A stretch of DNA of 44,685 nucleotides from Promethearchaeota archaeon (GTDB lineage: Archaea > Asgardarchaeota > Lokiarchaeia > Sigyniarchaeales > SOKP01): assembly GCA_004375715.1 (NCBI GenBank), contig SOKP01000012.1, positions 1 through 44,685 of the forward strand, read 5' to 3'. A program made the translations under genes and the position numbers. Shown one piece after another: positions 3,808 to 32,431 of this stretch. Every line of letters begins with the position of its first letter. The stretch's first letter is position 1. The notes below the pieces were generated by a model. It did no database searches. It saw only the letters and a list, made by a program, of their open reading frames with translations, and was not told where the DNA came from.

Positions 3808-5337
3808 TTAGGTACCAGCTATTCTTTTTGGATATCGAGTTTGTGCGCTGAGATTTTCGTGGAGTAGCTTGTTAACCAATTCGAATTTAACCCCGTTGTA
3901 TTGTTCATCGTACCACAAGTTATTCAACTCATCTAAATCATTTTTTCTGTCAAATAGATCTCCATAATCTCTATGACCTTCGTATATAGTTAACTTAAAT
4001 TCCTTTGTTATTAGATGTCTTAATCTCTCGTGCAGAGGTCCAACTTCCTCATCATTCTCAATATAACAACAATCTCGTGGTTGATTGGCAGAATTCTCGG
4101 GGTCTTTTAAAACAGCTGACATATCAAAGCCTTGCATATCTGGTGGTTGTTTTCTTTTTGATATCCCTAAAAGGTTTAGGAGCGTCTTTGGGTAGTCTAT
4201 AGAGCTCATTAAAGCATCTGTTACCGCGGGTTTTGTTATTCCAGGAACTCTCCAAATCATAGGAATCCGAAACACCCCCATATAAGCTGATGGACCTTTA
4301 AAAAGCATTCCATGCTCACCCATTAAATCGCCGTGGTCACTGTTATATACTACGATTGTGTTGTCAGCAAACCCTAATTTTTCTAAAGACGCTAAGATCT
4401 GTCCAATACTAGCGTCAAGTAACGCAACAGTACCATATGTATAAGCTATGAATTTTCTAAGTTCCTCTTCATTTGTCTCTCTTAACATCGCCCCAGGCAT
4501 AACGTTAATATACGGTGCTAGATAGGGGTGGTTCCTCAAATTCTCTAGATCCTTGAAACTTTTTGGCAATTCAACATCTTCAGACTTATACATATTCCTA
4601 TATTTTCCCGGGGGATAAACAGACTGATGAGGGTCGGGAAATGAACAATGTACATAGAATGGTTTATTCCCATAATCTCCATTGGCGTGCCTTTCCAAAA
4701 AAGCGGTAGTACGTTCAGTTACATAAGCGCTCGAATACAAATCGACCGGTAATTCGTGTTCAGAAAACACAGAAAAGAAATTGTCAATATTTTTCCACCT
4801 TTTCCGCATGTTGTCCGCTAGCCTTGGAGATCTTTCCTCTAACCAATCCAAATAATGACCCGCCAAGCAAGCCCCATGCCCTATCACAGTTTCCACTTCT
4901 TGGTACCCATAGTAAGGAATAGGAAAATTCTCTCGTACGGGATACCACCCTTCTTTTTGGAAAACCCAATCGTAAAAAGATTCAGCAGATTTATCGCTGA
5001 TTCTATACGGGGCCGTGTTAAATTGATGATGCAACTTTCCAAAAACTGCTGTGTGCCACCCTCTATCAACTAGCGTTTGAGTAATTGTTGGGACATCTTG
5101 AGAGAGAATCATCCCGTTGCTTCTAACACCATGTACATTAGGGTAATATCCAGTTAACAATGTTGCTCTATTTGGCATACACATAGGGTTTGTACAAAAT
5201 GCGTTCGTAAATCGAACTCCTTCGCTTGCCAATCTATCCAAGTTCGGAGTTTTTAACATTTTATTTCCAGAACAACTCATGTGGTCATATCTATGCTGGT
5301 CGCTAATGATAAATAAAACATTCATTTTTTCTTTCAT
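3808..5337 (-). CDS. Type I (formylglycine-dependent) sulfatase / phosphonate monoesterase family, copy 1
   Basis: The protein is a 509-residue alkaline-phosphatase-superfamily sulfatase. The activation signature CMPNRATLLTG (CxPxR, then LTG) at about residue 53 places a cysteine for conversion to formylglycine. Metal ligands are visible at IISDQH near the N-terminus and in NSDHGDLMGEHG at about residue 338. The C-terminus carries the usual GDLFDRKNDLDELNNLW segment. It has no signal peptide, so substrates must be imported. ATG 5337 follows AGGTGTAAA, a good Shine-Dalgarno site. It is the last gene of an apparent minus-strand operon (sulfatase 2, TauE/SafE permease, this gene) with gaps of 45 and 81 bases. 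No formylglycine-generating enzyme or anSME is in the window. Phosphonate monoester or choline-sulfate substrates are equally possible. Confidence 0.88.
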   Translation of the reverse strand: MKEKMNVLFIISDQHRYDHMSCSGNKMLKTPNLDRLASEGVRFTNAFCTNPMCMPNRATLLTGYYPNVHGVRSNGMILSQDVPTITQTLVDRGWHTAVFGKLHHQFNTAPYRISDKSAESFYDWVFQKEGWYPVRENFPIPYYGYQEVETVIGHGACLAGHYLDWLEERSPRLADNMRKRWKNIDNFFSVFSEHELPVDLYSSAYVTERTTAFLERHANGDYGNKPFYVHCSFPDPHQSVYPPGKYRNMYKSEDVELPKSFKDLENLRNHPYLAPYINVMPGAMLRETNEEELRKFIAYTYGTVALLDASIGQILASLEKLGFADNTIVVYNSDHGDLMGEHGMLFKGPSAYMGVFRIPMIWRVPGITKPAVTDALMSSIDYPKTLLNLLGISKRKQPPDMQGFDMSAVLKDPENSANQPRDCCYIENDEEVGPLHERLRHLITKEFKLTIYEGHRDYGDLFDRKNDLDELNNLWYDEQYNGVKFELVNKLLHENLSAQTRYPKRIAGT

Positions 5338-5418
5338 TTTACACCTAAATAAGATTTAAACTAAAGACAATATAAATCTATATCTACTTCTTTCAAAATG
5401 TTTCGATGTTTGACAAAT

Positions 5419-6342
5419 TTAAGTTATAAAGTAAAAAACCAGCGCCAAGGCTCCTAATACGAAAATTACAACTCCAACAGCCCTTCCCATCGTTTTAGCA
5501 GATAATTTTTGGATATATGTAGAGGCAATTATGCCAGATGTAATTGAACCGATTGCTAGATAAAACGAAAGTTTGAAATTTAAAAAGAATCGTCCTTTTA
5601 TAGTAATACCAAAAATTTGATAAAATGAGAAAGTACACAAGCCAATTATCATGCTCAGAATTAGAGCTGTACCAACCCCTTTTTTAAGAGGGTATCCATA
5701 AATTATAACTAGTGCTAATACAAAAACTAATCCAGAACTTGCTCCAAATAACCCTGAATTGATGCCAACAAAAATACCAAACCCAATCGCTAAAATATAG
5801 TACATTCGTGAGCCACGCGATATAAATCCTTTAATAGTATCTGATTCAGATGTTAACTGCTCGTCGATCTTTTTACTTAATTCGGTTAGCTCTTCTTTAC
5901 TTTTTCCTCTTTTTACGGTTTTACTTGCCCAGTTCTGAGCCATTTTTTTAACTGATTCGTATGTAGGAAAACCCCTCTTTAGAAAGAGAGCCCCTAAGAA
6001 CATAATGAAAATTGGAACAAACCACCCGTAAATGGAGCCTAGAGGTGTTGTCATTAAAAAAAAAACACCGAAAAAGGTGGTAACTATGCCAATAATGATT
6101 ATTAAAAATATATCTAATCTTATTTTAAATTGTTTTTTCCTAAAATATCCTATTGATACAGCGGCAGATGTAAGCAAATCATTTAATAGATTTATTGCAA
6201 TAGCTAAAAACACATCCCCAGTGAATAACAGAACAATAGGAAGTACAATTCCTAAGCCAGTTTGACCAATAAAGCTTATGCTTATTCCTACGAGAGCACC
6301 TATAGATATTAAAATTGCGATTTGATATATTTCCAAAGCCAT
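5419..6342 (-). CDS. TauE/SafE family membrane permease (probable sulfite/organosulfur anion exporter)
   Basis: The 307-residue polytopic membrane protein is built as two homologous halves of roughly four helices each, joined by a charged cytosolic loop at about residues 125-175. The halves show the family features: Gly-rich GLGIVLPIVLLFTGD followed by AIAINLLNDLL, and GINSGLFGASSGLVF followed by KKGVGTALILS. TauE/SafE proteins move sulfite, sulfonates, taurine or similar anions across the membrane. Here the gene lies between two sulfatase genes in the same direction, with 45- and 81-base gaps, so export of sulfite or sulfate, or uptake of a sulfated compound, is the natural inference. The substrate is not readable from the sequence. 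Confidence 0.82.
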   Translation of the reverse strand: MALEIYQIAILISIGALVGISISFIGQTGLGIVLPIVLLFTGDVFLAIAINLLNDLLTSAAVSIGYFRKKQFKIRLDIFLIIIIGIVTTFFGVFFLMTTPLGSIYGWFVPIFIMFLGALFLKRGFPTYESVKKMAQNWASKTVKRGKSKEELTELSKKIDEQLTSESDTIKGFISRGSRMYYILAIGFGIFVGINSGLFGASSGLVFVLALVIIYGYPLKKGVGTALILSMIIGLCTFSFYQIFGITIKGRFFLNFKLSFYLAIGSITSGIIASTYIQKLSAKTMGRAVGVVIFVLGALALVFYFIT

Positions 6343-6387
6343 TTTTTATTCACATTTGAATTCTTATTTATAAATTTTCATTTTTTT

Positions 6388-7911
6388 TTAAGTTGCAGCA
6401 ACTCTCTTAGGAAATTTGGATTGTGCCTTAAGGTTTTCCTGTAATAATTTATTTACAAGCTTAAATTTTTTATCTCGAAAGTCTTTTTTATCCCATAAAT
6501 TATTTAATTCATGAGGGTCGTTTTTGCGATCGTAAATATCGCCAAAATTATCTAACCCTTCGTAAACAGTTAGCTTATAATCTTCAGTAATTAAATGCCT
6601 TATCCGAGCGTCTAGAGGACCGACCTCTTCGTCGTTCTCTATTAAAACGCAATCTCGTAATTTCTTTGCTGGATTTTCTAAGACTTGTGACATGTCAAAA
6701 CCTTGCATATAAGGTGGGTGGTGTCGCTCTTTTACATTTAAAAGGTTAAGAATCGTTTTAGGAAGATCGATAGTACTAACTAAAGATTGAGACACTCCTG
6801 ACTTTGTTAATCCGGGGACTTTCCAAATTAAAGGGATGTGACAAGGTCCTACGAAAGGACATGGCCCTTTGAATAATAGCCCATGATCGCCCATTAAATC
6901 GCCGTGATCACTGGTAAAAATTACCATTGTATTTTCTGAATACCCCAACTTTTCTAAAGTCGCTAGTATTTTACCTACGCTATAATCTACGTACGCAATA
7001 GCTGCGTATGTTAAAGCGGTAATCTTGCGAACTTCCTCTTCCGTAGATTCTCGTAAGAAAGCTTTTTTAAAGGGCGGATTTTTTAAATGATATCCTAAAT
7101 ATTCATGGTGATATAAATTCTTAGCATCTTGAAAACTTGCGGGGAGTTCTATATCTTCTGGTTTATACAAGTCTTGAAATCTTTTAGGCGGATATAGAGG
7201 ATAATGTGGATCTGGAAAAGAACAATGCAAATAAAACGGTTTTTCTCCATATTCGCCCTTGGCATGTCTTTCGAGGAAAGCAATTGTTCGTTCTTGAACA
7301 TAGGTAGTGTTGTATAAATCTTCTGGTATTCCTTCGCAATATAAACTAAAAAGATTGTCGTAATTCTGAACTCTTTTTTTCATTTCCTCTGCAATTTTAG
7401 GGGCTCTTTCTTCCAACCATTCTGTATAATGGCCAGCGCACACAGTACCATTTCCTGAAATCACTTCCACTTCGTCGTAACCATAATAGGGGAGGGGAAA
7501 ATTCTTGCCTACAGGATCGTTTTTACCTTTATCTACCGCCCAACTAAACAAACTCTCGGCAGATTTCGTTTTTTGCTTAAAAGGGCCTAACCAAAATTGG
7601 TGGTGTATTTTTCCAATAGCAGCAGTATGCCACCCTCTCTTTCTAAGCGTTTTTGTAATGGTAGGGGTATTTTCGGGTAAATTAATTCCGTTGCTTCTAA
7701 CGCCATGCACATTTGGATATAATCCTGTGAGTAAAGTTGCTCTGTTAGGCATGCAAATTGGATTAGTACAATAATAATTAGTAAACCTCACACCCTCACT
7801 TGCTAACCTATCGAGGTTTGGAGTTTTTAGGATGGGATTTCCTGCACAGCCTAAATGATCGGCCCGTTGAGCGTCAGTAATAATAAATAAAACATTCATT
7901 TTTTCTTTCAT
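6388..7911 (-). CDS. Type I (formylglycine-dependent) sulfatase family, copy 2
   Basis: This 507-residue protein is collinear with the sulfatase at 3808-5337 and has an almost identical N-terminus (MKEKMNVLFII). It carries the same activation motif CMPNRATLLTG, the metal-binding TSDHGDLMGDHG, and the same C-terminal GDIYDRKNDPHELNNLW region. The metal Asp region reads ITDAQRADH rather than ISDQHRYDH, so the two copies differ around the first metal ligand. The two genes are clearly duplicates and probably act on related but different sulfate or phosphonate esters. This is the first gene of the minus-strand operon with the TauE/SafE permease. ATG 7911 is preceded by AGGATT. There is no signal peptide, so the enzyme should be cytosolic. 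Confidence 0.88.
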   Translation of the reverse strand: MKEKMNVLFIITDAQRADHLGCAGNPILKTPNLDRLASEGVRFTNYYCTNPICMPNRATLLTGLYPNVHGVRSNGINLPENTPTITKTLRKRGWHTAAIGKIHHQFWLGPFKQKTKSAESLFSWAVDKGKNDPVGKNFPLPYYGYDEVEVISGNGTVCAGHYTEWLEERAPKIAEEMKKRVQNYDNLFSLYCEGIPEDLYNTTYVQERTIAFLERHAKGEYGEKPFYLHCSFPDPHYPLYPPKRFQDLYKPEDIELPASFQDAKNLYHHEYLGYHLKNPPFKKAFLRESTEEEVRKITALTYAAIAYVDYSVGKILATLEKLGYSENTMVIFTSDHGDLMGDHGLLFKGPCPFVGPCHIPLIWKVPGLTKSGVSQSLVSTIDLPKTILNLLNVKERHHPPYMQGFDMSQVLENPAKKLRDCVLIENDEEVGPLDARIRHLITEDYKLTVYEGLDNFGDIYDRKNDPHELNNLWDKKDFRDKKFKLVNKLLQENLKAQSKFPKRVAAT

Positions 7912-8283
7912 AATCCTAAAAAATCTAATCTTACTTGTTAGTTAAAATTAAAGTCTATTTTATGATTTCATTTTTGATGTTAGAAAATATAAAGGTTCAT
8001 GTAGATATTAGTACTTACACCAATAGCTTTTGGCAAGTTTTATAAGTGTCCTATAATTCACTTTTTAATACATAATTAAAGGGATTTAAAAGTAATGCTG
8101 CTTCAAAAAACGACTAGAATTGAATCTAGGAATTCATTTAAGCAATTTTATCCCTTTTTATTATTATTAAATCTTCTCTTATTATTACTATAATACCCCT
8201 CTCTTCTATTAGAAGGAAGGAGATATCTTTCTCTTTAGGGGGGGTTGTATAAAAAACGATAAATTTAATATAGGTAAAGAAAA
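7912..8283. other. Intergenic region between divergent sulfatase operon and leuA-like gene
   Basis: These 372 bases separate two divergent transcription units and must hold both promoters. A TATA-like TTTTATAA lies at about 8038-8045. The stretch is very AT-rich except for C- and G-runs near 8196 and 8238, described separately. The open frame reading leftward across its right part (8138-8341) overlaps the leuA start and has a composition that does not look coding. I see no tRNA or other gene here. Confidence 0.5.
8196..8244 (+). promoter_or_regulatory. GC-rich leader hairpin candidate upstream of the leuA-like gene
   Basis: CCCCT at 8196-8200 can pair with AGGGG at 8237-8241. An inner hairpin CTTCT-ATT-AGAAG lies just inside the left arm. 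The G-run (GGGGGGG, 8238-8244) ends about 40 bases before the ATG at 8284. In DNA this AT-rich such runs stand out. It could be a 5' leader structure or a regulator site for the amino-acid cluster, but the pairing is imperfect and no known riboswitch was recognised. Confidence 0.3.
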
Positions 8284-9903
8284 ATGGAAAAAAACAGTAA
8301 TGTAAGTGTTTCGCAAATAATGGGGGAAATAAGAGACTCACTTAGTCTTCCGGATAAAGCTTATTTTTTCGATACAACGCTTCGTGATGGTGAACAAACC
8401 CCCGGTATAAGTTTTACTCACAAAGAGAAAATATCTATTGCACAAACACTAAATGATATGAAAATTGATGTAATTGAAGCGGGATTTCCAGTTACTTCTA
8501 TAGGCGATTTTGAAGCGTGTAAATCCATAGCTAAATTAGGATTAGATTCTGAAGTGATGGGACTAGCGAGGATGGCAAAAATTGATATAGATAAAGTTAT
8601 TGAAGCGGATATGGATAGTATTCACCTTTTTATTGCTACATCAGATTTACATCTAAAATCAAAACTTCAAATGAGTCGCGATGAAGTAATAGAGCAAATT
8701 AATAAATATGTTTCTTATGCTAAAGAGCATTACTCGACAGTATTATTCTCAGCTGAAGATGCAACTCGTTCTGATTTGGATTTCTTAATTAAAGCAAATT
8801 TAAATGCAATTGAGAGCGGAGCAACGAGAATTAATATTCCTGATACTGTAGGTACCATCTCGCCAAAAGCGTTCGGATATATGGTAAATAATGTATATAA
8901 AGCAATTCCAAGTGACATTAGAATAGCAGTACACTGTCATAACGATTTTGGACTCGCCGTCGCAAACACTATTGCGGGATTCGAAAATGGAGCCTCGGAA
9001 GCACAAACTACAATTATGGGTTTAGGAGAACGAGCTGGCAATGCTTCCTTTGAAGAAACAGCAATGTCACTCTATGCTCTATATCAATTACCTATGAATA
9101 TCATCACGCAAAAAATATTTCCCACTGCGAAACTCATCGAAAGTTATTGTGGTGGTAAAGTTAGGATAGGACGCCTCCAACCTTTGATAGGGCAAAACGC
9201 ATTTGCTCACGAAGCAGGCATTCACGCCCATGCCATGATTAAAAACGCGCGAACCTACGAACCTATCACTCCTAAGTTAATTGGAATAAGTAGATCTGAC
9301 AGTGTAGTAGATATTCTTAAGGAATCAATTAAATTTGGGAAACACAGTGGTGGACATGCGTTAAAAGCAAAATTGGGAGATCTTGGAATTAATACGAATG
9401 ATAAAGAATTCGTTAAAATAATGAATCACATTAAAGATTTTGGAGACAAAGGACATGAGGTTTCTGAAGAAGATTTTTTAGCAATTGTTAAGGATGTTAT
9501 GGGAGAAATACCCGAAGAAGAACAATACGTCATTCTTGAAGAATTAACGGTTTTGACTGGTTCCATAACTCCTACATCAACTGTGCGTTTAAAAATAAGA
9601 AATGGAGATTTCGTAGAAAAAGTCGCTTCCTCAATAGGAGTTGGTCCAGTAGATGCGTCAGTCAATGCTATTGTTAAATGTTTTAAACCCATGAGTAACA
9701 TTAAGCTTTTAAACTTCCAAATTGACGCGATTACTGGAGGAACTGAAGCATTAGGACATGTGGTTATCGAAATTTTGGACATTGAAAGTAATCTCATAGT
9801 TAAAGCAAGTGCTACTCATGAAGATATTGTAATGTGCTCGGTTTTAGCTCTTGTAAAAGGTTTGAATCTTATAGTTAAGAAAAAAAATGCTGAAATGAAA
9901 TGA
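8284..9903 (+). CDS. leuA: 2-isopropylmalate synthase (or citramalate synthase) family
   Basis: The 539-residue acyltransferase condenses acetyl-CoA with a 2-oxoacid. The TIM-barrel opens with FDTTLRDGEQTPG (residues 29-41) and carries the metal-binding HCHNDFG and the GLGERAGNASFEE segment near 250. A C-terminal domain of about 150 residues (ILEELTVLTGS, then a Gly/Ala-rich repeat region) matches the LeuA dimerisation/allosteric domain. That domain argues for isopropylmalate or citramalate synthase rather than the shorter homocitrate synthases (AksA type). It is followed by leuC- and leuD-like genes on the same strand (32-base gap to leuC), consistent with leucine or isoleucine synthesis and feedback control through the C-terminal domain. 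No leuB is present in the window. The true 2-oxoacid cannot be decided by reading alone. Confidence 0.88.
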   Translation: MEKNSNVSVSQIMGEIRDSLSLPDKAYFFDTTLRDGEQTPGISFTHKEKISIAQTLNDMKIDVIEAGFPVTSIGDFEACKSIAKLGLDSEVMGLARMAKIDIDKVIEADMDSIHLFIATSDLHLKSKLQMSRDEVIEQINKYVSYAKEHYSTVLFSAEDATRSDLDFLIKANLNAIESGATRINIPDTVGTISPKAFGYMVNNVYKAIPSDIRIAVHCHNDFGLAVANTIAGFENGASEAQTTIMGLGERAGNASFEETAMSLYALYQLPMNIITQKIFPTAKLIESYCGGKVRIGRLQPLIGQNAFAHEAGIHAHAMIKNARTYEPITPKLIGISRSDSVVDILKESIKFGKHSGGHALKAKLGDLGINTNDKEFVKIMNHIKDFGDKGHEVSEEDFLAIVKDVMGEIPEEEQYVILEELTVLTGSITPTSTVRLKIRNGDFVEKVASSIGVGPVDASVNAIVKCFKPMSNIKLLNFQIDAITGGTEALGHVVIEILDIESNLIVKASATHEDIVMCSVLALVKGLNLIVKKKNAEMK

Positions 9904-22894: not shown

Positions 22895-24040
22895 TTAATT
22901 CTGCTGGAAACTCGAAATCAGTATATTCTTAATGTTTTCAAAATGTCCTAAGTTAATCAACAGTAAATCGTTTAATGCATCTGTCAATCCTGCAATTTCT
23001 ATTTTTTCAACAATTTTATAGTAAGGACTTTTTTTCAGACGTTTTATTAGAGCCTTATTTTCTTCAATTCCACCCAATAAATAATCTCTACATTTTATTT
23101 CCTTGCTTCCAACTATCCTTTGAATAATAGCAAGCAACATTGTATCAAAGGTGACCCTTAGTATGATTTCTCGGTCAAAATCCTTTTTAATTTTAAACAG
23201 ATAATCTTTTAGTAGTAAAATTGATTCTTTAAAAAGTTCAATTGAATCGTTCCCAAGTTTTTCAATTCTTTCCTTAAATTCAGCCTTTTTTGTTGTAATC
23301 AAACATATTGCTGAAACAGTTTGGTATTCAGCGACAAAATGGATGAACCTTGCCTTGGTGTTAAGCGTAGTATCTTTAGACTCAGCACCTTTTAGCAAAT
23401 CGTCGAGGTTAGCTAAGGATTTTTTGAAATAGGTAGAAATAGTATAAAATTTTTCTGCCGCAGCTTCGAATTCTTTATTTACTATTAAGATTCGAGCTCG
23501 TTTTTCTTCTTCTTGATAAAGTTCGTCAAATTCATTGATTTTCATTACAGCTTTTAATATTAATCGTTTTCCTTTATCTTTTGTAATGTGAGATCGTTCA
23601 AGTGCTTGTCCCGCCTCTAATAGGAGTATTGAAGACAAGCTATAATATTCTTCTGGATCTGATTCATATAAATAATCTGATGCGTTTTTCCAACTTTCAC
23701 CAGCTGTTTCCCAGTCTCGCATTCGAAAAGAGATATTTCCTAGCTGGATTAATAGTTTTGCCGATATCTCATATAGTTTTAATTCTTCAGTTTTTCGAAT
23801 AATTGATTTTAAGCGATAAGTTGCTTGAATATTGTTCTTAAATTGCGATATAATTTGAGTTATTCTAATATAGATTTCATCTAACTTAAGATAACCACCT
23901 AAATCAAGGTAAATCTGAGCTGCTTTCTCGTATTCTTTAATAGATTCATCTCCCTTCCCTTTATCCGCTAATTCTTCAGCATAGTCAATTAATCTGATCG
24001 CTTCAGCTTCCTTTTCATCTTTATCGTCGTTGTTATACAT
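22895..24040 (-). CDS. TPR / alpha-SNAP-like helical repeat protein
   Basis: The roughly 381-residue all-helical protein shows TPR-like pairs in its first half: EYEKAAQIYLDLGGY, LIQLGNISFRMRDWETAGESWKNASDYLY and EFEAAAEKFYTISTYF. This organisation recalls alpha-SNAP, and Asgard genomes are known to carry many TPR proteins of this kind. No enzyme motif is seen. ATG 24040 is chosen because GGTGA lies eight bases upstream; the longer frame to 24055 would need TTG. It is downstream of an MtrH-like gene in the same direction, separated by 147 bases. Partner binding is likely; the SNAP link is a suggestion only. Confidence 0.6.
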   Translation of the reverse strand: MYNNDDKDEKEAEAIRLIDYAEELADKGKGDESIKEYEKAAQIYLDLGGYLKLDEIYIRITQIISQFKNNIQATYRLKSIIRKTEELKLYEISAKLLIQLGNISFRMRDWETAGESWKNASDYLYESDPEEYYSLSSILLLEAGQALERSHITKDKGKRLILKAVMKINEFDELYQEEEKRARILIVNKEFEAAAEKFYTISTYFKKSLANLDDLLKGAESKDTTLNTKARFIHFVAEYQTVSAICLITTKKAEFKERIEKLGNDSIELFKESILLLKDYLFKIKKDFDREIILRVTFDTMLLAIIQRIVGSKEIKCRDYLLGGIEENKALIKRLKKSPYYKIVEKIEIAGLTDALNDLLLINLGHFENIKNILISSFQQN

Positions 24041-24187
24041 AATCAAATTCACCAAGACATTTAGATAAATCAGTATAGATTAAATTTATATTTCTATTAA
24101 GTAATCCAAATACGATAGTTCTTTAGTTATTGAATGAAATTAAGCTTATTTAAATTTTGATCATAAAAAGAGAATTCTATTCATGCT

Positions 24188-25069
24188 CTATAAATTATCA
24201 AATAGTCTAATATTCTCTTTTTTCATTACTTTTTTAAGTTCAATAGCCTGATAGACAGACGCAAAGCATTCTCTTGCGTCTTCAATTGCTCCATAAAAAA
24301 TAAAATTAGAATACCAAGAAGCTATAAACATTATACTCGCTTTCCGAGCCTTTGTGTGAAATTTTTTGTTTAATCTAGGCGAAGAATATTTAAAGAGAAA
24401 AAGGGTTGGTGCGGTACCTACAGGGAGTTTGAGAGCGCGACTAACAATTTGTTGAGTTTCAAGGATGTGTGAGAAACTTTCAATATCAATAACTCCGCCA
24501 TCAATCCATATTTTTTCAATCCCAATTTTCTGTAATCCTTCTATGATGCTGGTATTTCCAGGTTGGTTATTCTCTGTAATGTAATTGTATCTCTGACTCG
24601 ATCGCATGTTAGTAGGACCAAGTATTAGAACTACAGCTGATTTAATCCCAAATTTCTTGATTAACTCAGTTTCTTTTATATTTTTGAGATTTGATATAGA
24701 ATTGTAAATATAATCGTCTGGTTTTATCCCTCGTTCGTTTAAATGTTCAACTCCAGCAATTCTTGCTTCGAAACTACCACCTAAAACAAAGGGAGGGTCA
24801 TATAAATCTAAATAAAAATCTAAATATTTCACCATTGCTTCAGGAGTTGTAGCAGAGATTTCAATCAAATCTGAGAGTTTATATTGAGAGGCTAGACTCT
24901 TTTGAGCATCAATTCTTTTTCTTGCTTTAGATTCATCAAATTGTAGCCCATTTTTTCTATCAACCAATGTTTGGCCTTGGTAAAACATTGTACCAATTAA
25001 AATGGGGGGTAAGGTAAAATTACCGCATCCTAACTTAACATTGCCGTATAAATAATAGTCCTCATTCAT
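24188..25069 (-). CDS. mtrH: MtrH-like methyltransferase (tetrahydromethanopterin S-methyltransferase subunit H family)
   Basis: The 293-residue protein follows the MtrH pattern from end to end. LIGTMFYQGQTLVDRKNG and DESKAR at the start correspond to the GTIFY region. TTPEAMVKYLDFYLDLYDPPFVL, then SFEARIAGVEHL and DDYIYNSIS, follow. LPVGTAPTLFLF and ASWYSNFIFYGAIEDA close the barrel. In methanogens MtrH transfers methyl groups between tetrahydromethanopterin and the corrinoid of MtrA. No other Mtr subunit lies in the window, so this is probably a stand-alone MtrH that moves methyl groups from a corrinoid protein to a pterin, feeding the Wood-Ljungdahl branch represented by CdhA at 28087-30432. 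The methyl donor is unknown. Confidence 0.8.
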   Translation of the reverse strand: MNEDYYLYGNVKLGCGNFTLPPILIGTMFYQGQTLVDRKNGLQFDESKARKRIDAQKSLASQYKLSDLIEISATTPEAMVKYLDFYLDLYDPPFVLGGSFEARIAGVEHLNERGIKPDDYIYNSISNLKNIKETELIKKFGIKSAVVLILGPTNMRSSQRYNYITENNQPGNTSIIEGLQKIGIEKIWIDGGVIDIESFSHILETQQIVSRALKLPVGTAPTLFLFKYSSPRLNKKFHTKARKASIMFIASWYSNFIFYGAIEDARECFASVYQAIELKKVMKKENIRLFDNL

Positions 25070-25167: not shown

Positions 25168-26367
25168 TTAAAATTGATGCAATTTCACTCCACAGTTTTT
25201 ACAGCGACTATCAGTTAAATCTTTAAAACAGTGCTCATGGTAAAGGGTTTTGCAATTATCACATCTTAAGATATTTTGCCCTTCCTCAAATATAAAATTA
25301 CACACCGGGCACGAGTTAAACATATCATCCGAATCTAAATCGTTAAAATTGATTAGTTCTACATGTGAAAGTTCGGGTGGTTTAGGGTCTTTTTTAGATT
25401 TTATTCTTGGTCTAACAAGAGAGGTGAGCTTTTGAACTTGAGATACTTCAGTTGGAATTTTTAACAAATAAAAGCAATGAGGACATCGAACAGTTCCCGC
25501 TTGTTTCATTTTGATGTCTTTTTGGGAATTAGCCCAAGAAGATAAGCAATGAATATGATACGGAGCTTGACAATTTGGGCAATAGCGACCGCTAACATAA
25601 AAGGAACTCTTAGTGTAGGGATTTAAATTTGAAAAGCAGATCGAGCATTTTTTATAATCTACTAAGCCTCTTATCTGTAACAAACGTTGTTCTTGATCTT
25701 TTGTCAAATCTTGGACTCTTAAAAGATCAGCTGATATTTTTCTAAGAAAAGCAGGATTCTCAATAACTGAGGATGCTCCATCGCCATAAGTTTTAATATT
25801 AGATCCTGCTAAGTCATGAGCCGCTTGTAGTAAAGATTGAGCGTCATTATTGTAATAATAATTTCCCCCTGTGAGGTCGCTCATCCTTTTTAAGATATTG
25901 AGAGGAGAAAGTTCACCCAATCGAAATGTATCTATTTTTACGTTTAATCCTTGAGCTAAACGTGCCATTTTCAATGGATCAATAGAAGTCGTAGTAAAAT
26001 TGCCATCCGAAATAACAAGGATTCGAGGAATTTTAGCGGCGATCTTCCGTAATTCAGAAATAATTAATTTTATAGAAAGCCCTAAGGCTTCTCCCAAAGC
26101 AGATTTTCCCGAAACTTCTAAAACATCTAATACTTCAAAAAGTTTATTTTTATCGTTTGTAAAATCTATTATTTTTTTTGGCTTATTCGAAAAATTTATA
26201 ACTGCAAACGCGCTCGAGGAATCTTGAACAATTCTCTCACTAATTAACTTTTTTAAAGCATCAATACTACAAGTTAATCGATTTGGGGTGTAATCTGCGC
26301 GATACATCGATCTGGAGGTGTCGATGCAAACAACTATGTTTTCAGGATGAAATTCTTGAGATGCCAT
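25168..26367 (-). CDS. VWA-domain protein with two C-terminal C4HC3 zinc fingers (Ssl1/p44-like layout)
   Basis: The 399-residue protein begins with a von Willebrand A domain (residues ~10-200). Its metal site DTSRS (DxSxS) lies near 17-21, and VISDGNFTT holds the distal Asp. SRSMYRADYTPNRLT recalls the start of the TFIIH subunit p44/Ssl1. The first finger, at about 243-302, has C-x2-C-x18-C-x2-C-x4-H-x2-C-x20-C-x2-C. The second, at 353-392, has C-x2-C-x12-C-x2-C-x4-H-x2-C-x8-C-x2-C. Both are C4HC3 arrangements of PHD or RING-like type. A VWA followed by a C-terminal cross-brace finger is the order seen in p44. Roles as a scaffold, a ubiquitin-type ligase or a transcription/repair factor are all possible. 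It is divergent from an Arf-like GTPase. Confidence 0.75.
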   Translation of the reverse strand: MASQEFHPENIVVCIDTSRSMYRADYTPNRLTCSIDALKKLISERIVQDSSSAFAVINFSNKPKKIIDFTNDKNKLFEVLDVLEVSGKSALGEALGLSIKLIISELRKIAAKIPRILVISDGNFTTTSIDPLKMARLAQGLNVKIDTFRLGELSPLNILKRMSDLTGGNYYYNNDAQSLLQAAHDLAGSNIKTYGDGASSVIENPAFLRKISADLLRVQDLTKDQEQRLLQIRGLVDYKKCSICFSNLNPYTKSSFYVSGRYCPNCQAPYHIHCLSSWANSQKDIKMKQAGTVRCPHCFYLLKIPTEVSQVQKLTSLVRPRIKSKKDPKPPELSHVELINFNDLDSDDMFNSCPVCNFIFEEGQNILRCDNCKTLYHEHCFKDLTDSRCKNCGVKLHQF

Positions 26368-26541: not shown

Positions 26542-27750
26542 ATGTCTGAAGAGGAGACAAAAAGCGTTGTGATTAAAGACTTTTTCAAAAGGTCTGTAAT
26601 AATCAACGAATTAGATGAAGTGTTGAAATTCAAACCAGATTCGTTAATTGGAATTGATCAAATTTCCTCAGACAAATTAATAGAAAATAACATAAAAACC
26701 ATCGAGGAACTAGCGAAATTATCGATCGAAAGTCTTCCAACTATTGAAGAAATTCCTCCTAAAATCCTTCAGAAATGGGTAAGGATCGCACAAGTACTTG
26801 AAAAAGCAATCAGAGAGAAAATTAAAACGCATAAGAAAATTTTGATGATAGGTTTGGATAATGGGGGAAAAACGAGCATTTTAGCAGTTCTCCAAGATAA
26901 ATTTTCAATTATTAAGTCTCTTCTCCCCACAAGGGGAGTTAAACGCGTAAGACTGGACTTTTTTGGTTACCCGATACTTAGTTGGGATTTAGGAGGTCAG
27001 GTCCAATATCGAGAAAAACTTTATTTTAACAGACCGGAATTATTCTTTACTGAAGCCGATTTGATACTTTACGTTATTGACACCCAAGATAATGATAGAT
27101 TTGCTGAAGCTGCAAATTACTTCCGTCAAGTATTAAAAGCATTGATTGAATTAAATGAATTTCCTCCAATCTTAATAGTACTCTCAAAAAGCGATAAAGA
27201 TATTCGCACTTCTCTCGAATGGCAAAATAATGTAACTGCGATAAAAAATAAATTCAATAACATTATGGGCGAATATGAAAATTATTCAATCAGCTATTCT
27301 GATACGACTATATATCAGAAAGAGACTATAATGCAAATGTTCAGCGTAGCTCTGAAATTAGTTTCTGAAACTTCAGAGATAATTGAGAACATCATAGAGG
27401 ATTTTACTCATACTATTGAAGGTAAAGCTGCAAGCTTAATTTCGATGGATGGTTTAATCTTTGGAAGCTTCACGAGCTCAGATCTTGATGAAGCCTTGTT
27501 AAATAATACAGCACTAATTATGCAAACCCTTTCGAACTTTCATACTTCGATAGGATTAACTAGAGAATCTTCAATAACACTTGATTTTCCCTTGAATGGA
27601 TTCTCTATTCGAGGAGAAAAACTTTTTGAATATTCTGAGCTAAAAATACCAGTATATTTGTGGTTGCTTAGTGAAAGCTTTGAGCTATTAAAGGAGAAAA
27701 TCGATTACTTCAAGCAACAGCTGCTACCTTTGATTAATTTGTTCCTTTAA
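26542..27750 (+). CDS. Arf-like small GTPase with N-terminal helical (HhH-like) and C-terminal roadblock-like domains
   Basis: The 402-residue multi-domain GTPase begins with about 95 residues of paired helices (DQISSDKLIENNIKTIEELA, then IEEIPPKILQKWVRIAQ), resembling a helix-hairpin-helix. The G domain follows. The P-loop GLDNGGKTS is at about 104-112, the Arf-family G3 WDLGGQ at about 148-153, and G4 is SKSD instead of NKxD at about 215. The final 120 residues (ASLISMDGLIFGSF, then ALIMQTLSNFHTSIGL) look like a roadblock/longin-like module. The WDxGGQ motif places it with Arf/SR-beta-type GTPases. No myristoylation site is evident. Such fused GTPases are typical of Asgard archaea; the signalling partner is unknown. 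Confidence 0.85.
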   Translation: MSEEETKSVVIKDFFKRSVIINELDEVLKFKPDSLIGIDQISSDKLIENNIKTIEELAKLSIESLPTIEEIPPKILQKWVRIAQVLEKAIREKIKTHKKILMIGLDNGGKTSILAVLQDKFSIIKSLLPTRGVKRVRLDFFGYPILSWDLGGQVQYREKLYFNRPELFFTEADLILYVIDTQDNDRFAEAANYFRQVLKALIELNEFPPILIVLSKSDKDIRTSLEWQNNVTAIKNKFNNIMGEYENYSISYSDTTIYQKETIMQMFSVALKLVSETSEIIENIIEDFTHTIEGKAASLISMDGLIFGSFTSSDLDEALLNNTALIMQTLSNFHTSIGLTRESSITLDFPLNGFSIRGEKLFEYSELKIPVYLWLLSESFELLKEKIDYFKQQLLPLINLFL

Positions 27751-30671: not shown

Positions 30672-31268
30672 TTAAAGAGAAGCTAAGAAATCAGATACCG
30701 CAGCGTCAGAAAGCTGTTCGTCTATTAAAGCGTTATCAATTTCTTCTGAGAGGAGATCAAATTTGTATGAACATTTCTTGCCTCCTGTTAAAACGCACTC
30801 TACTTCACTACCATCAACTTCAATTCCAAGTAGATCAAAAATACTGTTAAAAATTCCAAGATATAATAAACATAAGTTTTTAGCTAAAAGATTGCCTATT
30901 TCTTGGGTTGCTAAAGAATCGTACACATTTAGGATAATGTGGTCTTTTTTAAACATCCCTGTGAGCCCACCGTACCCCATAAGCGTTAAGCCCTCGAGAG
31001 TTCCCAAGACAACTTCCTTTTTAGTCTCCATGGGAGCATCACTCCAATCCTTGTTAGAAAAAAACTTCTCCAAAAATATTTTGCCTAGCGATTTCCCGAC
31101 CCATATCAAGATATCTTCAGCGTTTGTTCCAGCAAATTCGCAAAATTCCATTATTTCATTTGGACGGAGCATTACAAGCCTCATTTCTTTATCTTTTTCG
31201 CCTAAAAATAGATGTCCTTCTTTTTCCTCAATATTTATCTGTAATTCTTTTTTGAGCCGTTTAAACAT
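30672..31268 (-). CDS. V4R-domain protein (TRAPP/Bet3-like superfamily)
   Basis: The 198-residue protein has a C-terminal V4R pattern. GGLTGMFKKDHIILNVYDSL is followed by a helix with LCLLYLGIFNSIFDLLGIEV, then the Cys-containing beta hairpin EVECVLTGGKKCSYKF at about 156-171. V4R domains share the Bet3 fold of TRAPP trafficking complexes and also act as small-molecule sensors in bacteria and archaea. The N-terminal 60 residues are charged and hold no recognised motif. ATG 31268 is preceded by AAGGA. It sits downstream of a longin-GTPase gene in the same direction (125 bases), a setting that fits a GTPase-linked or trafficking-like role, though this is inference. Confidence 0.7.
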   Translation of the reverse strand: MFKRLKKELQINIEEKEGHLFLGEKDKEMRLVMLRPNEIMEFCEFAGTNAEDILIWVGKSLGKIFLEKFFSNKDWSDAPMETKKEVVLGTLEGLTLMGYGGLTGMFKKDHIILNVYDSLATQEIGNLLAKNLCLLYLGIFNSIFDLLGIEVDGSEVECVLTGGKKCSYKFDLLSEEIDNALIDEQLSDAAVSDFLASL

Positions 31269-31393: not shown

Positions 31394-32431
31394 CTAAGCT
31401 GAGACTAAGGTAAAAATCGTGTTTAATACTTTTTCAATATTATAACTAGTTTTAACAGATGTAAAAACAAATTTCCAATTGTTATGATGTAAACTATCAA
31501 ATTCAAAGAAGTCGATGATTTCTTTTTCTGTTCTTTTTAATTGTTCATCGTTATTGCTATTGTTATGGTTAATTAAATCAACCTTATTACCAAGGATTAA
31601 AAGAGGAATATCTTGTAGATCATTTTCGTTATATATTTTCCAAAACTCAGTTTTTGATTCGTCAAAGCGTAATTGGTTAGCAACATCGACCATATATATA
31701 ATTATATTCGTATCTTGAAGCCCAAGTAGCCATCTGTCCCTAAAGGTGTTTTGCCCTGGGCTATCCCATATTGAGAGAAGACCATCTTGTCTCTGAATAT
31801 ACTCAATGTTAAATCTTTTACTAGGTGTAAAATAATTGTCGTTAAACTTACCTGTTTTAATTCTCCTTGTAAAGCTGGATTTACCCACTTCGTCTATTCC
31901 AAAAAGAAAAACCTTTGTAAACAATCCTGAGGGATGAAAGGAAACATCATGAACTTGTTCCAGAGTTTCATCACCAAATCTTTTAATATCAATAAACAAT
32001 GTTATTAGGAAATTTTCTATTGCAATATCGTCTTTAAATGAGCAACATTTTTCGATATTTAATAGTTCATTGGACATGTCAACGAAAATTTCTCGGTAAT
32101 CGTAAGGATTATCTTCTTTTTCAAATACTAATCCGATAAGCATTTCACCATTAATGCATAAAGTATAGAGGTTCTGGTTCCCAATCAGTTGAGAAACGGG
32201 ATTACCGATTACAAACGGATTAGATTTGTCTTGCGCAGAATTTACTACACGTTCTGATTTGAGATTATCACAACAATCGTTTTCTAGGGATTCTTGATCG
32301 TGTCCTTGGATGATTTTTAACACTATATCTTTATTATCCTTCTTGTTTATATCTTCGGGATAGCTATAGATATCAAGGTTTGTTAAATCATAAGAATTTT
32401 TGCGCTTTAATAAAAAGATTTTAGATAACAC
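31394..32431 (-). CDS. Ras/Rag-like small GTPase with N-terminal longin-like domain
   Basis: The 345-residue protein has about 165 N-terminal residues with alternating strands and helices (SKIFLLKRKNSYDLTNLDIY, then LYTLCINGEMLIGLVFE and an EIFVDMSNELLN helix) as in longin or roadblock-like folds. The GTPase domain follows. The P-loop GIDEVGKSSF is at about 178, G3 WDSPGQ at about 221-226, NKVD at about 277-280, and a TSVK (SAK-like) element near 325. The WDxPGQ motif recalls Rag/Arf-type GTPases. GTG 32431 is the start, with AGGAAAATTCT upstream. Its mixed order, regulatory domain before GTPase, is the reverse of the gene at 26542. Confidence 0.82.
   Translation of the reverse strand: MLSKIFLLKRKNSYDLTNLDIYSYPEDINKKDNKDIVLKIIQGHDQESLENDCCDNLKSERVVNSAQDKSNPFVIGNPVSQLIGNQNLYTLCINGEMLIGLVFEKEDNPYDYREIFVDMSNELLNIEKCCSFKDDIAIENFLITLFIDIKRFGDETLEQVHDVSFHPSGLFTKVFLFGIDEVGKSSFTRRIKTGKFNDNYFTPSKRFNIEYIQRQDGLLSIWDSPGQNTFRDRWLLGLQDTNIIIYMVDVANQLRFDESKTEFWKIYNENDLQDIPLLILGNKVDLINHNNSNNDEQLKRTEKEIIDFFEFDSLHHNNWKFVFTSVKTSYNIEKVLNTIFTLVSA

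Follow-up and report, generated by a model that had tools for sequence, protein, structure and literature searches.

The window analysed here, a stretch of 44,685 nucleotides, encodes on its minus strand (positions 25168 to 26367) a protein of 399 amino acids with an ATG start and the architecture of TFIIH p44/Ssl1. Its VWA domain (residues 10-190; 25798 to 26340) carries a metal site formed by D16-T-S18-R-S20 with D121 and the motif D25-x2-P28-x-R30, and is followed by two C4HC3 fingers on the same strand, a RING finger at residues 241-298 (25474 to 25647; finger 1) and a RING/PHD-like finger at residues 353-392 (25192 to 25311; finger 2). Pfam returned VWA_2 (1.4e-16), VWA and Ssl1 (2.4e-8, above cut-off), together with RING-, PHD- and C1-type matches just under their cut-offs, namely zf-RING_2 on finger 1 and Prok-RING_1, PHD and C1 on finger 2. 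The AlphaFold2 model of the protein has a mean pLDDT of 88.7. Divergent from this gene lies that of a Gtr1/RagA-like GTPase of 402 amino acids (26542 to 27750, plus strand; Gtr1_RagA 1.3e-18, with a weak N-terminal HHH match). Downstream are an MtrH-like gene (24188 to 25069, minus; PF02007 8.6e-35), which keeps this place in the genus and in most of the family, and the gene of a helical TPR-like protein (cluster c3; 22895 to 24055, minus; weak TPR_2), also a conserved neighbour. A V4R-domain protein and an Arf-like GTPase are encoded side by side near the RagA-like GTPase (30675-31268 and 31397-32431, minus), and two sulfatase-like genes flank a permease-like gene, all named from sequence, at 3811-7911 (minus).

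An earlier note on this DNA had described a VWA protein with two tandem C4HC3 fingers, and the description holds: both fingers are complete and their ligands are conserved in the 93 distinct members of the family that were compared. All eight ligands of finger 1 (C241-x2-C244-x18-C263-x2-C266-x4-H271-x2-C274-x20-C295-x2-C298) are invariant (93/93), and those of finger 2 (C353-x2-C356-x12-C369-x2-C372-x4-H377-x2-C380-x8-C389-x2-C392), the spacing of which matches exactly that given earlier, are each kept in 87-93 members. The canonical metal site is likewise intact, as had been claimed, 86 of the 93 keeping both D121 and DxSxS (S or T), and R30 is present in every one. Judged from the aligned members, this conservation of fingers and metal site is not chance. 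Pfam and profile searches place both fingers with the RING/PHD type, and neither with FYVE fingers nor with zinc ribbons; 31 of 38 members match zf-RING_2 at E<=0.01, the 399-residue protein falling just under the cut-off of that Pfam family. Finger 1 has Ile two residues past its first Cys (92/93), Trp four residues past ligand 6 (88/93) and Pro directly after ligand 7 (86/93), which in the present protein are I243, W278 and P296. The complete trio occurs in finger 1 of 81 members and in finger 2 of none of the 93, the finger 2 of the present protein having neither the Trp nor the Pro. These are the canonical E2-contact positions of RING ligases (PMC7010608). In a search with the fingers alone, the best structural matches all had E > 1e-3 and RNF RINGs and p44 were intermixed; therefore, the fingers alone do not decide between the two. 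Matches included E2-bound structures of RNF12, RNF13 and RNF165, not significant on the fingers alone, and in a profile search against the PDB finger 2 matched the RING of Arkadia at 9e-7.

Over its whole length, the model resembles p44/Ssl1. In a Foldseek search of the PDB, TFIIH p44/Ssl1 structures were the first 23 matches (E from 3e-18), most of them spanning ~390-420 columns and thus all three domains. Whole-length TM-scores were 0.4-0.5, low values that presumably stem from differing or poorly predicted domain orientations. An hhalign comparison with p44 and Ssl1, the sequences of which were taken from PDB search results (p44 being identical over 395 residues), aligned residues 10-394 with 59-390 at 99% probability, with VWA, finger 1 and finger 2 collinear and a score of 134.9. 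As a confident model has these 23 structures as its top matches and the profile alignment is collinear, the analysis supports a resemblance to p44 in architecture, and the parallel to p44/Ssl1 that the earlier note had drawn is borne out for fold and domain order. Both proteins have ~400 residues with the order VWA, central finger, C-terminal finger, and they share the spacing of the second finger, the central-finger motif [SG]G[RG][YF]CPNC and D-x2-PNR. The central finger of Ssl1 (FCSCH...YGGYFCPNC...CSLPTVCPCC) aligns with finger 1 (KCSIC...SGRYCPNC...HC...VRCPHC). However, the Loki protein differs from p44: it has no N-terminal extension, its metal site is intact and its central finger is a full eight-ligand RING, whereas the central finger of human p44 retains fewer of the cysteines. 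In finger 2, the fifth ligand is His, as opposed to Cys in the C4C4 finger of p44. Aligned alone with those of p44, the fingers score 26.2 at 14% probability, which exceeds all 60 nulls (maximum 24.0) generated by shuffling all columns other than the fixed ligand columns.

The VWA domain is less specific in its affinities. PF04056 (Ssl1) scores 34.5 bits against a cut-off of 27 in the present protein and reaches E<=0.01 in 34 of 38 family members; among 228 Asgard genomes it exceeds the cut-off in 79, all Lokiarchaeia and only at members of this VWA-RING-RING family. By structure, the domain matches the p44 VWA (5ivw_0) at TM 0.86 and rmsd 2.0 A (Foldseek), with most Rpn10 chains at TM 0.75-0.81 and BatB at 0.71. 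Searched against PDB sequences, the family profile finds Rpn10 first (5e-20), p44 next (1.3e-15) and a BatA-like protein at 8e-14, and VWA-only hhalign scores are equally near for BatA/B (101.5), Rpn10 (97.5) and p44 (95.3). The earlier note had also pointed out SRSMYRADYTPNRLT near the metal site, which is present as residues 18-32, but its D-x2-P-x-R motif is shared by Rpn10 and BatB; D-x2-PNR was therefore dropped as p44-specific evidence, because BatB carries the same motif. A VWA tree grouped the Loki, p44 and Rpn10 domains at 90/83, with long p44 and Rpn10 branches and thin sampling, and AU tests on the same thinly sampled tree rejected neither Loki+p44 (p 0.47) nor p44+Bat (p 0.44).

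Searching the 228 Asgard genomes with a 38-member profile recovered the full-length family only in Lokiarchaeia, in agreement with the titles of close relatives (Candidatus Lokiarchaeota/Lokiarchaeia). One ortholog (family A) is present in nearly all Lokiarchaeia, most of which have at least one paralogue besides and often several. Other Asgard classes yielded partial matches, VWA-only or lone RING fingers, at E 1e-13 or weaker, and no relatives were found in viral contigs. This distribution, together with the separate RING genes that are common in the other classes, would fit a convergent likeness to p44, i.e., a generic Bat/Rpn10-type VWA fused to local RING fingers and sharing no descent with p44. 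Convergence is also consistent with the like scores of the VWA to BatA/B, Rpn10 and p44, with AU tests that reject no other grouping and with the weak finger-only comparison. We nevertheless regard it as somewhat unlikely, given that the same three domains follow in the same order at nearly equal length, that 'SGRYCPNC' in the Loki finger stands opposite 'GGYFCPNC' in Ssl1, that the finger alignment surpasses every null and that PF04056 exceeds its cut-off only in this family among the 228 Asgard genomes. This estimate, like the others given here, is a judgement and was not computed; it is independent of the three functional readings discussed below, any of which is compatible with convergence.

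Likeness in build does not extend to the setting of TFIIH. C1_4 (PF07975), the Pfam family of the C-terminal p44 finger, had no match in the source genome or in the VWA-RING-RING family, and 14 control genomes likewise had none. No separate p34 (Tfb4, PF03850) was seen, since the matches to PF03850 coincide with genes of the VWA-RING-RING family itself, and p52 (Tfb2) had no match in 24 genomes in a search that had no working positive control. XPD-type DEAD_2 helicases are encoded in 23 of the 24 genomes of the genus, two of them in the source genome; the DEAD_2 family also matches control archaea, including Haloferax and Sulfolobus, so that their presence is uninformative. Since, furthermore, the VWA is equally close to Rpn10 and BatA/B and the family is absent from other Asgard classes, the protein is built like p44 but membership of a TFIIH is not supported. 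The suggestion of an archaeal relative of a TFIIH core subunit thus stands with respect to architecture, and falls short in the specific kinship of the VWA, in C1_4 and in a separate p34. A functional counterpart of p44, in which the VWA would bind and stimulate an XPD-like helicase in repair or transcription while the fingers bound other partners, is in our estimate unlikely. It would agree with the whole-length structure and profile match, with the grouping of the three VWA domains in the tree and with the helicases of the genus, as the p44 VWA binds XPD (PMC4094531). However, in the loci that were read no family gene lies beside XPD genes, and a family with several paralogues in each genome does not resemble a TFIIH subunit, which is single-copy. 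A separate RAD25/XPB-like family has been reported (PMC9258230), and neither TFIIH nor von Willebrand proteins come up in a 2026 Asgard review (PMC12993045). Our search of the open literature found no description of an archaeal relative of p44.

Genes for E2 are present in 23 of the 24 genomes of the genus and ubiquitin genes also in 23. In the source genome, ubiquitin, E1 and E2 genes lie together, and the counterpart in a second genome (G152) of the gene that comes next matches JAB/JAMM; no RING gene was seen on inspection of this operon, nor was one obvious in the operons of the genus (L187, 579-3632; L192, 7514-10561). Elsewhere in the genus, stop codons interrupt some of the E2 reading frames. 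With this operon and the finger-1 residues, the E3-like alternative that the earlier note had left beside p44 gains support, and we tentatively read the protein as a putative RING-type ubiquitin ligase or E3 adaptor, at a confidence just short of even; the E3 activity proposed for yeast Ssl1 (PMC4094531) also speaks for this reading. Finger 1 would dock a ubiquitin-loaded E2 via I243, W278 and P296. A substrate or partner would be held by the VWA domain, whose metal site is intact in sequence, and finger 2 could serve as a structural or dimerising finger. Arg or Lys past the last ligand forms a 'linchpin' in many, though not all, RING E3s; the corresponding residue of finger 1 is Phe, Tyr or Leu in all 93 members and never Arg or Lys, which weakens the ligase reading, as does a C-x2-C in place of C-x-H at ligands 3-4. 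It is further weakened because, at the loci examined, no family gene has a ubiquitin, E1 or E2 gene for a neighbour, although E1 and E2 genes, the presence of which the earlier note had proposed to check, are encoded. Stand-alone RING-like proteins are numerous in Asgard genomes, and the VWA-RING-RING family therefore need not be the E3.

Known systems share parts of this design. RING-H2 E3s such as Arkadia/RNF111, RNF165 and RNF12 have the cross-brace finger with the C-x-I-C, W and C-P-x-C of finger 1, and finger 2 resembles that of Arkadia in sequence, but the Loki protein differs from them at ligands 3-4, in the aromatic residue or Leu past the last ligand and in the fusion of two RINGs to a VWA. 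Rpn10/S5a, the ubiquitin receptor of the proteasome, likewise has its VWA at the extreme N-terminus and D-x2-P-x-R, and gave the best profile match in the PDB; unlike the Loki protein, it lacks RING fingers and carries ubiquitin-interacting motifs. No such motif appeared among the Pfam matches listed for the 399-residue protein. Bacterial BatA/BatB share the DxSxSM...D-x2-P-x-R type of VWA, yet are annotated as membrane proteins and have no RING fingers. In Caldiarchaeum, an archaeal host with ubiquitin, E1, E2 and an Rpn11-like JAMM, the small RING protein srfp (E3) is encoded within the ubiquitin operon (PMC5654768), in contrast to the Loki family, which lies outside the operon and has its RING joined to a VWA.

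Synteny of family A is with the RagA-like GTPase and not with TFIIH-type genes. The two genes stand head-to-head, usually ~140-390 bp apart, in 46 of the 47 family-A loci with a readable upstream gene, and GTPase genes also adjoin some paralogues (L083, L088). This arrangement would fit a scaffold for small-GTPase signalling in which VWA and fingers assemble around the RagA-like GTPase and ubiquitin chemistry has no part. However, most of the paralogues adjoin other genes: in most cases a methionyl-tRNA synthetase gene comes directly after B, C and E, and an M20 peptidase gene precedes B (both named from sequence). Moreover, because small GTPases abound in Asgard genomes, some adjacency is to be expected, and the conserved E2-contact trio would be left unexplained. 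We consider such a scaffold unlikely. For the putative ligase, the head-to-head GTPase may instead be the partner of family A. The methionyl-tRNA synthetase gene keeps its place just downstream even though B, C and E differ from one another, and does so in distantly related Lokiarchaeia (L079, L081, L086, L087, L090 and others).

Lokiarchaeia are related to the archaeon from which eukaryotes arose, and the VWA-RING-RING family is a candidate for the ancestral form of the TFIIH core subunit p44. More specifically, it could be a sister, still extant in archaea, of the lineage from which the p44 VWA, and perhaps that of Rpn10, originated. The ancestor would then have been a ubiquitin ligase of VWA-RING-RING build, and the central RING would have lost ligands later, on becoming p44; we deem this scenario unlikely. 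If true, it would account for the E3 activity proposed for yeast Ssl1 (PMC4094531). Through the ligase residues of finger 1, the family offers a connection between archaeal and eukaryotic machinery that can be put to the test, with no TFIIH-like complex found around it. Both the descent of p44 from an archaeal ubiquitin ligase and the identity of the E3s that work with the Asgard ubiquitin operon thereby become open to test.

Several divergent relatives were encountered. On another contig of the source genome (L190, G000:C182), two tandem degenerate relatives (6022-7368 and 7502-8887) have a RING-like finger and a VWA that has neither DxSxS nor P-x-R, and match no Pfam family at E 0.001. VWA-only tandem genes with no RING fingers occur in another Asgard class (L148, L159; G071:C35). 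Long members of 608-686 amino acids (L093, 4107-5930; L095, 4977-6833; L094, 3894-5951) keep the VWA and finger 1 and have finger 2 replaced by another C-terminal region. PCI domains are typical of the proteasome lid, and the C-terminal region of the L093 protein has a weak PCI match (5e-5, 39 residues).
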